This document shows positions 9,898 to 43,423 of a stretch of 45,821 bases of DNA, piece by piece (within the stretch, counting starts at the first letter, position 1; each line of letters starts with the position of its first letter). The stretch covers positions 1-45,821 of the forward strand of contig DXCX01000057.1 of assembly GCA_019115785.1 (NCBI GenBank), written 5' to 3'. The position numbers and the translations under genes are program-made. The notes beneath the pieces are model-generated. The model did no database searches and was not told the DNA's origin. It was given only the letters and a program-made list of their open reading frames with translations. This DNA comes from Candidatus Intestinimonas merdavium. Its GTDB lineage: Bacteria; Bacillota; Clostridia; Oscillospirales; Oscillospiraceae.

Positions 9898-9918
9898 CAT
9901 GTGAAAGAAGGTGTCCCG

Positions 9919-11499
9919 GTGAGCCTCTATAAGATCATGATAGTGGATGATGAGGCCGAAGTCCGGCAGGCCATCGCCCGAAAGATCGACTGGCGCGCCG
10001 TGGGGTTTGAGATCGTGGCCGATGCGGAGAATGGCCGGGACGCCCTGGAGAAGGCGGAGGCGCTAGAGCTGGATGTGGTCCTCACCGACATCAAGATGCC
10101 CTTTATGGATGGGCTGGAGCTGGGTGCGGAGCTCTCCCGGCGCAAGCCCAATCTGAAACTCATCGTTTTCTCCGGTTTTGACGAGTTTGAGTATGCCAAG
10201 GAGGCCATCAAGCTCAATGTAGTGGAGTATGTCCTCAAGCCGGTGAACGCCGCCGAGCTCACCGCCATTCTGGACCGGGTACGGAAGGTACTGGACCAGG
10301 AGATCGAGCAGCGCCGGAACATCCGCCAGCTTACCCAGGCCTACCAGGACAGTCTGCCCCTGCTGCGGGAGAAGTTCCTCCAGGATCTCATGCGGGGCCC
10401 TATGGACCCGCAGGTGCTGGAGGCGCAGGCGGAACGATTTGCCCTCACCGTCCGGGACGGGGCCTATAAAGTGGCGGCAGTGTGCGACATTGTCCACAGT
10501 GGCGAGCGGCGGCCCGCCCTCAGCGCCGAGCTGGTGCCGGTGTCAGTGCAGCAGATGCTCAGCGATGCCCTCCGGGACCGTTGCAGGAGTGAGATCGTGC
10601 TGGGGGTATCCTCCATCCTGGTGGCCACTGCCTGGGAACGGGACCCGGTGGAGAGCCTCATGCGCATCCTGGGGGAGGTCTGTACCGAGTGTGAGCGTAT
10701 TCTGGGGGTCACGCTGACGGTGGGCATTGGCCGCCCCTGTCAGAAGCTGGAGGAACTATGCCGTTCCTGTGGAGAGGCCCGGACCGCCCTGGAGTACCGT
10801 GCGGTGGTGGGGGCTGGAAAGCCCATCTACATACAGGATATGGAGCGTCTGGACCGGACGGCGCCGGAGGGAGATACCCACCGGGAGCAGCAGCTCCTCT
10901 CGGTCATCAAGTTCGGTTCCCAGGAGCAGATCGCCGCCATGGTGGACAAACTCCTGGCGGACGGCAACGGGGAGTGGAGCAGCCAGTCCAAAGCCATTGG
11001 CGTGCTGGGGACTCTGCTGCCCATTATCCAGCGGTGCCGGCTGGGGGAGGAAGCCATGCTGGGACCCAGGGGAACATGGCTGGGTCTCCTCACAGAGGAT
11101 ACCCCCATGGAGGATCTCCGGGCCTGGCTGCTGTCGGTCTGCCTCAACATGAGCGGCTGCATGGATCAGCGCCGGGTCTCCACCGCCAAACGGTTGGTGG
11201 AGGAGGCGGAGCGCTATATCCGTGAAAATTACCCCGACTCCGGGCTGTCGGTGGACCGGCTGTGTGATCACCTGCATATCAGCCAGTCCTATTTTTCCAC
11301 GATCTTTAAACAGGAGACGGGGCGCAGCTATGTCCAGTACCTCACCGATGTGCGTATGGAGCACGCGGTGGAGCTGTTGCGCACCACCGACGACAAGACC
11401 TACATGGTGGCGGAAAAGGTGGGCTATGACGAGCCCAATTACTTTAGTTATGTGTTCAAAAAACGGTTTGGCGTCTCTCCGTCGCAGTTTCGTAAGTAG
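9919..11499 (+). CDS. Response regulator with C-terminal AraC-type HTH (YesN-like)
   Basis: N-terminal receiver IMIVDDEAEVRQAI..DVVLTDIKMPFMDG; C-terminal AraC HTH HLHISQSYFSTIFKQETG..VGYDEPNYFSYVFKKRFGVSPSQFRK; GTG start with upstream GAAGG. Confidence 0.9.
   Translation: MSLYKIMIVDDEAEVRQAIARKIDWRAVGFEIVADAENGRDALEKAEALELDVVLTDIKMPFMDGLELGAELSRRKPNLKLIVFSGFDEFEYAKEAIKLNVVEYVLKPVNAAELTAILDRVRKVLDQEIEQRRNIRQLTQAYQDSLPLLREKFLQDLMRGPMDPQVLEAQAERFALTVRDGAYKVAAVCDIVHSGERRPALSAELVPVSVQQMLSDALRDRCRSEIVLGVSSILVATAWERDPVESLMRILGEVCTECERILGVTLTVGIGRPCQKLEELCRSCGEARTALEYRAVVGAGKPIYIQDMERLDRTAPEGDTHREQQLLSVIKFGSQEQIAAMVDKLLADGNGEWSSQSKAIGVLGTLLPIIQRCRLGEEAMLGPRGTWLGLLTEDTPMEDLRAWLLSVCLNMSGCMDQRRVSTAKRLVEEAERYIRENYPDSGLSVDRLCDHLHISQSYFSTIFKQETGRSYVQYLTDVRMEHAVELLRTTDDKTYMVAEKVGYDEPNYFSYVFKKRFGVSPSQFRK
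11418..11499 (+). repeat. 3'-end repeat copy A (coding end of the response regulator)
   Basis: 82 bp repeated at 11649-11730 with 3 mismatches, all synonymous (TCT/TCG Ser, AAG/AAA Lys, TAG/TAA stop). Confidence 0.95.
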
Positions 11500-11648
11500 C
11501 CCACCTTTTGGGCCCCGCCTGAGGCGGGGCGCGGGTCATCCGCGTCCAAGGTTTTGTCCCTAGGCAAAACCTTGCCGCAGGCGGAATTTACTTCCGCCGA
11601 GGAAGAAAAGGGAGGGGTCCCCTGGAAAAGGGCGGCGCCCTTTTTTGG
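11500..11648 (+). mobile_element. Small non-coding structured insert element, copy 2 (149 bp)
   Basis: Between the two gene-end copies; hairpins at 11512-11530, 11548-11573, 11580-11598 and 11619-11650; shares GGCGGAATTnAnTTCCGnCG and GGGGTCCCC-hairpin-GGGG with the element at 1640-1775. Confidence 0.6.
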
Positions 11649-11730
11649 GGTGGGCTATGACGAGCCCAATTACTTTAGTTATGTGTTCAAAAAACGGTTT
11701 GGCGTCTCGCCGTCGCAGTTTCGTAAATAA
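11649..11730 (+). repeat. 3'-end repeat copy B (displaced response-regulator end, stop codon included)
   Basis: 79/82 identical to 11418-11499. Confidence 0.95.
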
Positions 11731-32478: not shown

Positions 32479-32507
32479 GATAAGGAAGAAAATAAGCTCG
32501 GATGATG

Positions 32508-32680
32508 GCATCGGGAGAGACCGCCTCAGGCGGCGCCGAAGGGGATTGGCAGAAAAACTCTCAGGCAAAAGTACCGGTGTCGGACGAAACTCCGAAGACC
32601 AAAAGGGCGCGTGCCCTGGAGGACCGAAGAAGCAATTTGCTCCACTGGGGCGGAGAATCTTTCAGGTAAGAAGACGGAGG
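32508..32680 (+). ncRNA. Tandem glycine riboswitch (two aptamers)
   Basis: CGGGAGAGACC...CGCCGAAGGGG...CTCTCAGGCAAAAGTACCG then GGACGAAACTCCGAAGACC...ACCGAAGAAGCAA...GAATCTTTCAGGTAAGAAGAC; directly upstream of gcvT. Confidence 0.92.
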
Positions 32681-40158: not shown

Positions 40159-40172
40159 CCCTTGCAATTAAA

Positions 40173-40338
40173 GATGATAGAGGCGCAACGCCCATCAGTA
40201 CCCCCGCTGAGGCCCACGGAGGCCGGTGATCCGGGGGGAAAGGGAGCTTTGCCGAAATGGGCTGTCCGCCGTGGGACAGCCTGTTGGGCGTCGGGAGAAG
40301 ATCCCGCCGACTGTCACATTGCGTGGAGTGCTATCGTC
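40173..40338 (+). ncRNA. Lysine riboswitch (L-box)
   Basis: GATAGAGGCGCAACGCCCATCAGTA...GGGGGGAAAGGGAGCTTTGCCGAAATGGGCTG...TTGGGCGTCGGGAGAAGATCCCGCCGACTGTCACATTGCGTGGAGTGCTATC; P1 GATGATAG/CTATCGTC. Confidence 0.92.
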
Positions 40339-40360
40339 CTTTTTCATACTTTTTGATGAG

Positions 40361-43167: not shown

Positions 43168-43179
43168 GGGTAGGTCAAA

Positions 43180-43385
43180 GGCTGGGAAGGGAAGGAGTAC
43201 GTCTGTTTCCAGGTTCAGAGAGGAGCCGCTGTGGTGCGAGGCTCCCCGGTGCAGACGGAATGTGGTCCCGGAGCCCCGCGGCCCAATGGATGATGCGATG
43301 TCCTGGTAAGCCGCGGCGCGCGTCCGCGTTATGGACGAAAAAAGTGCGGGTGCCAAGGCGCCCGAATTCAGGTGGTACCGCGGAG
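43180..43385 (+). ncRNA. T-box riboswitch leader (probably tRNA-Val)
   Basis: GGAGTACGTCTG...CAGAGAGGAGCCGCTGTGGTGCGAGGCTCC...GCAGACGGAATGTGGTC and AATTCAGGTGGTACCGCGG; valS lies downstream. Confidence 0.88.
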
Positions 43386-43390
43386 CCATC

Positions 43391-43423
43391 CGCCCTGAAG
43401 CCAGAAGGCTTCAGGGCGTTTTT
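43391..43423 (+). terminator. T-box terminator
   Basis: CGCCCTGAAGCCAGAAGGCTTCAGGGCGTTTTT. Confidence 0.9.

Follow-up and report, generated by a model that had tools for sequence, protein, structure and literature searches.

Contig DXCX01000057.1 of Candidatus Intestinimonas merdavium, analysed here over its whole length of 45,821 nt (the window; contig C44 of a 2.34-Mb genome, in an assembly of 128 contigs that is 86% complete), carries near the 3' end of a gene for a YesN-type response regulator a short hairpin-rich element belonging to a dispersed family. Insertions of this family have the order H | A B g E | A B, in which the gene body (H) is followed by a first copy of the gene terminus (AB copy 1), a guide (g) complementary to the insertion junction, a structured scaffold (E) and a second copy of the terminus (AB copy 2). 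This anatomy, the complementarity between guide and junction, the restriction to gene termini, the purifying selection on both AB copies and the occurrence of empty and occupied sites among relatives all emerge from sequence comparison. We consider it reasonably probable that they describe a non-autonomous homing-type family, whose unit A B g E occupies a conserved coding site selected by its guide and carries a terminus that keeps the gene working. The features of the yesN insertion are as follows.

9901–11499, + strand: host gene, an open reading frame with Pfam domains Response_reg and HTH_AraC (YesN-type response regulator); its body is H, its last 82 bp AB copy 1
11414–11426, + strand: guide target AAAAGGTGGGCTA, spanning the junction, complementary at 13 of 13 positions to 11497–11509
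11418–11499, + strand: AB copy 1, the terminus in use, with the insertion junction just 5' of it (uncertain by about 3 nt)
11497–11509, + strand: guide g, TAGCCCACCTTTT, reverse complement of the junction, overlapping the stop codon
11512–11530, + strand: hairpin I of scaffold E, from sequence and alignment
11531–11543, + strand: hairpin II of scaffold E, from covariation
11547–11574, + strand: hairpin III of scaffold E (CAAGG...CCTTG), from covariation
11575–11602, + strand: hairpin IV of scaffold E, a conserved loop and flanking pairs with a G/C swap (CTTGsCGCAG / GAGsA), from covariation
11619–11650, + strand: hairpin V, the scaffold 3' end, where the second repeat starts in nearly all copies
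11649–11730, + strand: AB copy 2, then the native downstream region, from repeat comparison and the empty sites in relatives

A preliminary description of this locus had reported an 82-bp repeat of the gene end with three silent mismatches, and the repeat is real: 11418–11498 recurs at 11649–11729 with 98% identity and a spacing of 231 (82 bp if the stop codon is counted in full), the differences being TCT/TCG, AAG/AAA and TAG/TAA, as claimed. The 149-bp insert between the copies (11500–11648), described as structured, does fold better than its shuffles (z = −3.6), and the deoC case within 10 kb, to which the yesN insertion had been reported as the second, has the same architecture, a repeat of 99% identity enclosing a 136-bp insert.

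1573–1639, + strand: deoC AB copy 1, from repeat comparison, with a DeoC domain in the host gene
1651–1662, + strand: deoC guide GCGGACGGCGCC, complementary to 1570–1581 with one mismatch
1663–1775, + strand: deoC scaffold E, diverged and without hairpin III (model match 1684–1751, E = 4.4e-4)
1776–1842, + strand: deoC AB copy 2, from repeat comparison

That account of the insert was right about repeats and fold and overlooked the 13-nt segment complementary to the junction, which is present in nearly every copy of the element. The guide occupies the 10–16 nt that immediately precede hairpin I (hairpin II in copies lacking hairpin I). Its complementarity to the host begins about 4 nt upstream of the junction, the modal distance at which pairing starts, and extends to 6–11 nt downstream of it. 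Matches of guide and junction scoring at least 8 were found in 91% of the first 58 insertions as against 7.7% when guides were exchanged between loci and 5.2% for other host windows, and in 114 insertions of the enlarged set of 126 non-redundant insertions on which all further counts of insertions are based. In 107/126 cases the best or joint best complement of a position-fixed segment, among all sites within 1.5 kb, was the junction. At orthologous insertions in different species each guide tracks its own target, and different junctions within one gene are accompanied by different guides, as in the genes that we take, from their terminal sequences, to be those of IF-2, AspRS, uvrA and lepA (the last at both of its ends). 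Of the 23 guide positions at which the two AB copies disagree, 20 match copy 1; with position +2, which may be scaffold, set aside, the figure is 8 of 9, and copy 1 and guide thus belong together.

Gene frames around the insertions were assigned by a codon-usage score, chosen over a longest-frame rule that antisense frames misled. By this measure all 126 insertions lie at a gene terminus, and none was found in mid-gene or intergenic sequence. The 3'-end location proposed in the preliminary description stands for 100 of them, which are inserted in sense within the last 34–109 nt of the gene (one at 151), and is to be amended for the other 26, which lie in antisense at gene starts. Several of the latter (L042/L032 in truB, L044/L024 in prfC, L040/L030 in arcC) carry the start codon and in some cases also the ribosome-binding site, so that the gene retains a usable start. 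The targets fall into 60 gene clusters, many of them presumably conserved single-copy genes by our reading of their identities, and 28 clusters have taken repeated insertions, in many cases across several species. In the 3'-end insertions the two AB copies differ by 279 synonymous and 59 nonsynonymous changes, a ratio of nonsynonymous to synonymous rates (dN/dS) of about 0.09. The synonymous share of 83% compares with 29% expected under neutrality and about 45% if one copy were dead (p = 2e-45 against the dead-copy model). Since the differences are almost only silent, each of the two copies has functioned as a real gene end.

AB repeats are 30–138 nt long (median 68) and run past the gene end, and a direct repeat of host sequence flanks nearly every copy within the genus. 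The scaffold is a non-coding, hairpin-rich segment of about 115–150 nt, and in almost all copies the model match ends 18–33 nt before the second repeat, whose start lies at the base of the final hairpin. Among the loci examined no distant repeat pairs enclose an open reading frame, and no long, cargo-bearing version was found. Tandem arrays of the whole unit, with two to three copies about 195–260 bp apart, occur at L048 (contig C97 of the same genome), L303 (yesN of G009), L318 (G010), L248, L090, L091 and L121, as repeated insertion at one target or unequal exchange would give.

The fold of the scaffold is strongly supported by covariation. In an alignment of 100 distinct copies, pairing holds in 98.6% of cells and compensatory change is seen in 648, and the covariation value of 0.638 contrasts with 0.153 for shuffled and at most 0.107 for slid alignments. 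In hairpin IV (window position 11575 with 11602; CTTG[G/C]CGCAG ... GAG[C/G]A) the pair is G–C or C–G in 94 of 98 cells, a swap at one position being almost always mirrored by its partner. G–U pairs account for 44 of approximately 2585 paired scaffold cells (1.7%, our own count) versus 7.3% for tRNAs encoded at these loci, a low share that RNA folding alone would explain less easily than a fold formed by single-stranded DNA or on both strands.

The family was surveyed across genomes by searches with the insert and with a covariance model, built on a structured core aligned from eleven copies, and by analysis of stretches centred on the matches. The model finds 25 copies in the genome of the window, most of them flanked by a host repeat, which bears out the recurrent process and the dispersed family of homologous inserts postulated earlier and excludes chance as the source of the yesN and deoC repeats. 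Each of ten congeners holds 1–49 copies (21 in a single-contig genome), and other genera carry the element as well: a pattern scan of named genomes returned at least 116 stretches with it, from genera including Flavonifractor, Pseudoflavonifractor, Intestinimonas, Dysosmobacter, Oscillibacter, Enterenecus and Evtepia. Bearers among the Oscillospiraceae are both isolates and metagenome-assembled genomes (MAGs), including the complete genome of strain CCNA10. Sampling across the order identified the element in 22 of 245 genomes, mostly of the same family, with the addition of one high-copy genus of another family. In that genus (L127–L138 in G042; G066, G084, G128) the scaffold reaches very high copy numbers, at least 69 in G042. 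Most of these copies have neither flanking repeats nor a recognisable guide, and they are embedded in longer shared repeats that contain additional hairpins. Element-rich genomes belong to the genus of the window and to g23, g33 and g51, and relatives such as G007 are nearly free of the element. The element has no match in Rfam 15 at gathering score, and we found no description of these hairpin repeats in the open-access literature of PubMed Central (PMC). Elsewhere in the window ordinary riboswitches are present, namely a glycine riboswitch (32502–32586), a lysine riboswitch (40170–40341) and a T-box leader (43175–43400).

Comparison of the yesN site in eleven congeners offers a view of the element as a polymorphism. 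Six genomes are occupied at the same junction (G000, G001, G002, G006, G009 and G010, the last two with the element in tandem), and in G003, G004, G005 and G008 the site is clearly empty, with a plain gene end. In G001 (L301) copies 1 and 2 are of different allele types that are found in different species, hinting at import or exchange. The preliminary description had held that the repeated segment comes from the target gene and not from the element. Its origin in the target gene is upheld, and yet the formula is too simple, since purifying selection on both copies, the agreement of the guide with copy 1 and the mixed alleles of G001 suggest that it is the element that brings the upstream copy along, as a spare terminus.

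We therefore favour a mechanism in which the unit A B g E would insert precisely at H|A, inside conserved coding sequence near the gene end. The guide, next to the 5' base of the scaffold, would pair across the junction and thereby set where the 3' end of E joins; the unit's own AB would complete the broken gene at once, and its departure would restore the native end. Pairing would most likely occur on single-stranded DNA, as in IS608, with a putative enzyme acting in trans. Direction of insertion by the guide, movement of the unit between genomes and single-stranded DNA as the substrate are what we infer from the comparisons described above. Because the unit brings its own AB, essential genes would become usable as conserved, widely shared targets, and templating from the target at the founding event is one possibility for how a new guide arises.

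Several observations weigh against this mechanism and define its weaker points. The guide also pairs with copy 1 of an occupied locus, so that self-targeting is unprevented, and most scaffold copies of genus g33 have neither repeats nor a guide that can be recognised. The count of guide–target covariation is partly circular, guides having been located by their match, although the controls on 58 insertions and the position-fixed test are unaffected. In tandem arrays, decay of middle relative to last copies is a trend and no more. AB copies within a genome are usually each other's closest relatives when compared with other species, which would fit movement among close strains and repeated excision and insertion equally well; long-distance transfer is for this reason unsupported, with G001 as a possible exception. 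Finally, candidates for the element's enzyme were tested by co-occurrence over 60 relatives, and none of Y1_Tnp, RVT_1, IscB, TnpB or IS110 tracks it. A Y1 transposase (PF01797) is missing from the bearing genomes G000, G001, G009, G010 and G042 (98% complete), and 12 regions retrieved around Y1-like genes contain no copy of the element. Reverse transcriptase (PF00078) is missing from G000–G002, G005, G006, G009, G010 and G042, and IscB, TnpB and IS110 genes have no association with element-rich genomes.

The guide may alternatively act as RNA: a transcript of guide and scaffold would lead an enzyme acting in trans, either nuclease or target-primed polymerase, to the junction, and the unit would be copied in by homologous repair or reverse transcription. 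The 5' guide of 10–16 nt with its 3' structured scaffold does resemble Cas9/IscB-type guide RNAs, the distance from scaffold to junction is fixed, and about a third of guide mismatches (16/49) are G–T wobbles. Yet many element-rich genomes are without IscB, TnpB, IS110 or RVT_1 genes, G–U pairs are scarce in the scaffold helices, and a nuclease cutting double strands would also cut the intact target of the occupied locus, so that we regard RNA guidance as possible and on the whole unlikely. The complement could also be a product of the insertion itself: a 3' end at the gene terminus would snap back, copy about 15 nt over the junction, and switch to a scaffold copy and back, yielding A B A' E A B. 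One such event would produce both the matching segment and the long repeat at each new target, and a palindrome-rich scaffold whose helices change arm by arm, with few G–U pairs, is what templated hairpin correction is expected to leave. We nevertheless find this origin doubtful, because it leaves unexplained why the 3' end of the scaffold always joins about 4 nt inside the copied segment, why only gene termini are targeted, with E outside the gene and not one intergenic site, and why the two repeats both change in the manner of coding sequence.

Islands and phages of the integrase type are recognised by direct repeats of a gene end that enclose an insert, the carried copy having diverged silently, and repeats of that kind flank the inserts described here. 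It is nonetheless very improbable that these are degenerate remnants of such islands or phages restoring gene ends (attL/attR), for the insert of 115–150 bp has a conserved, covarying fold and neither integrase nor cargo inside, one scaffold recurs at some 60 unrelated target-gene clusters with a junction complement specific to each insertion, and 2.9 million viral contigs yielded just three matches to the element. An assembly artefact or chance repeat, a concern raised at the outset and natural in a window drawn from a fragmented, MAG-like assembly, can be discounted almost entirely. The same structures are found in single-contig G008, in complete CCNA10 and in the cultured isolates An10, An184 and An827, the copies show silent differences, and relatives have empty sites.

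Returning to insertion directed by the guide, the family would, if this holds, constitute a naturally reprogrammable insertion system with a short guide and no cargo gene that leaves its target gene intact, and essential genes would be open to occupation because the element repairs its own damage. It would account for the hairpin repeats that occur as a family in abundant bacteria of the gut, Flavonifractor and Intestinimonas among them, and render testable the questions of which enzyme recognises the scaffold, whether the guide is DNA or RNA, and how new guides originate. We lean, if only slightly, towards regarding it as an undescribed class of base-pairing-guided homing elements without a protein gene: some 150 bp of non-coding DNA with a programmable guide of 10–16 nt and a spare, co-evolving target terminus, served by a putative enzyme in trans and reprogrammed by natural genomes to dozens of essential-gene sites.

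Among known systems the closest likeness is to the IS200/IS605 family. In IS608 the guide, situated 5' of the base of a hairpin, recognises a tetranucleotide by pairing, and the element enters on the 3' side of this tetranucleotide, which stays in the left flank (PMC5934647); here too a guide directly 5' of a hairpin base pairs with about 4 nt just 5' of the insertion point that are kept in the left flank, there is no short target duplication, and hairpins read as single-stranded DNA would suit the rarity of G–U pairs. In contrast to the 4 nt of IS608, for which targets of 12/17 nt were reached by engineering (PMC5934647), the present guide is 10–16 nt long, unique to each copy and paired downstream of the junction as well, the scaffold has five hairpins, a host terminus of 30–138 nt is carried, and many bearing genomes are without a Y1 transposase. 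Repetitive extragenic palindromic sequences (REPs) and the bacterial interspersed mosaic elements built on them are likewise short, non-coding, palindromic and present in many copies, and TnpA-REP recognises REPs in folded single-stranded form, a 5' tetranucleotide having been proposed to serve as the guide (PMC8266576). They differ from our element in their conserved GTAG motif, at the stem base, and in lacking a host-gene duplication; no constant motif exists at the guide position here, and genes resembling Y1 or REP-associated tyrosine transposases (RAYTs) are rare, unassociated with the element and without a scaffold copy nearby. Miniature inverted-repeat transposable elements (MITEs) of DD(E/D) transposons were rejected as a category since the repeat, at 30–138 bp, is neither short nor fixed in length and there is no constant terminal repeat.

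The combination of a structured scaffold with a target-matching guide is shared with the guide RNAs of OMEGA (obligate mobile element-guided activity) and CRISPR systems (IscB, TnpB, Cas9) and with IS110 bridge RNAs, from which the element is set apart by the absence of an associated IscB, TnpB or IS110 gene in element-rich genomes and of an Rfam match, and by the inverted arrangement of guide and target within one locus. It has the associated enzyme of none of the families tested, and the sequence hallmarks of neither REPs, MITEs nor any Rfam entry, while it resembles IS608 in geometry and homing elements in strategy. Integrase islands and phages in gene 3' ends also restore the target gene by a carried terminus, unlike our element with integrase or cargo, without its many unrelated target genes and without a junction complement. 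Homing introns, inteins and homing endonuclease genes, finally, resemble it in occupying conserved essential-gene sites with empty and occupied alleles among relatives (six occupied versus four empty at the conserved yesN site). The present element, with no endonuclease gene, consists of just about 150 bp of non-coding sequence and a gene end, and while homing introns and inteins avoid harm to their host gene by splicing, here it is avoided by means of a spare gene end.
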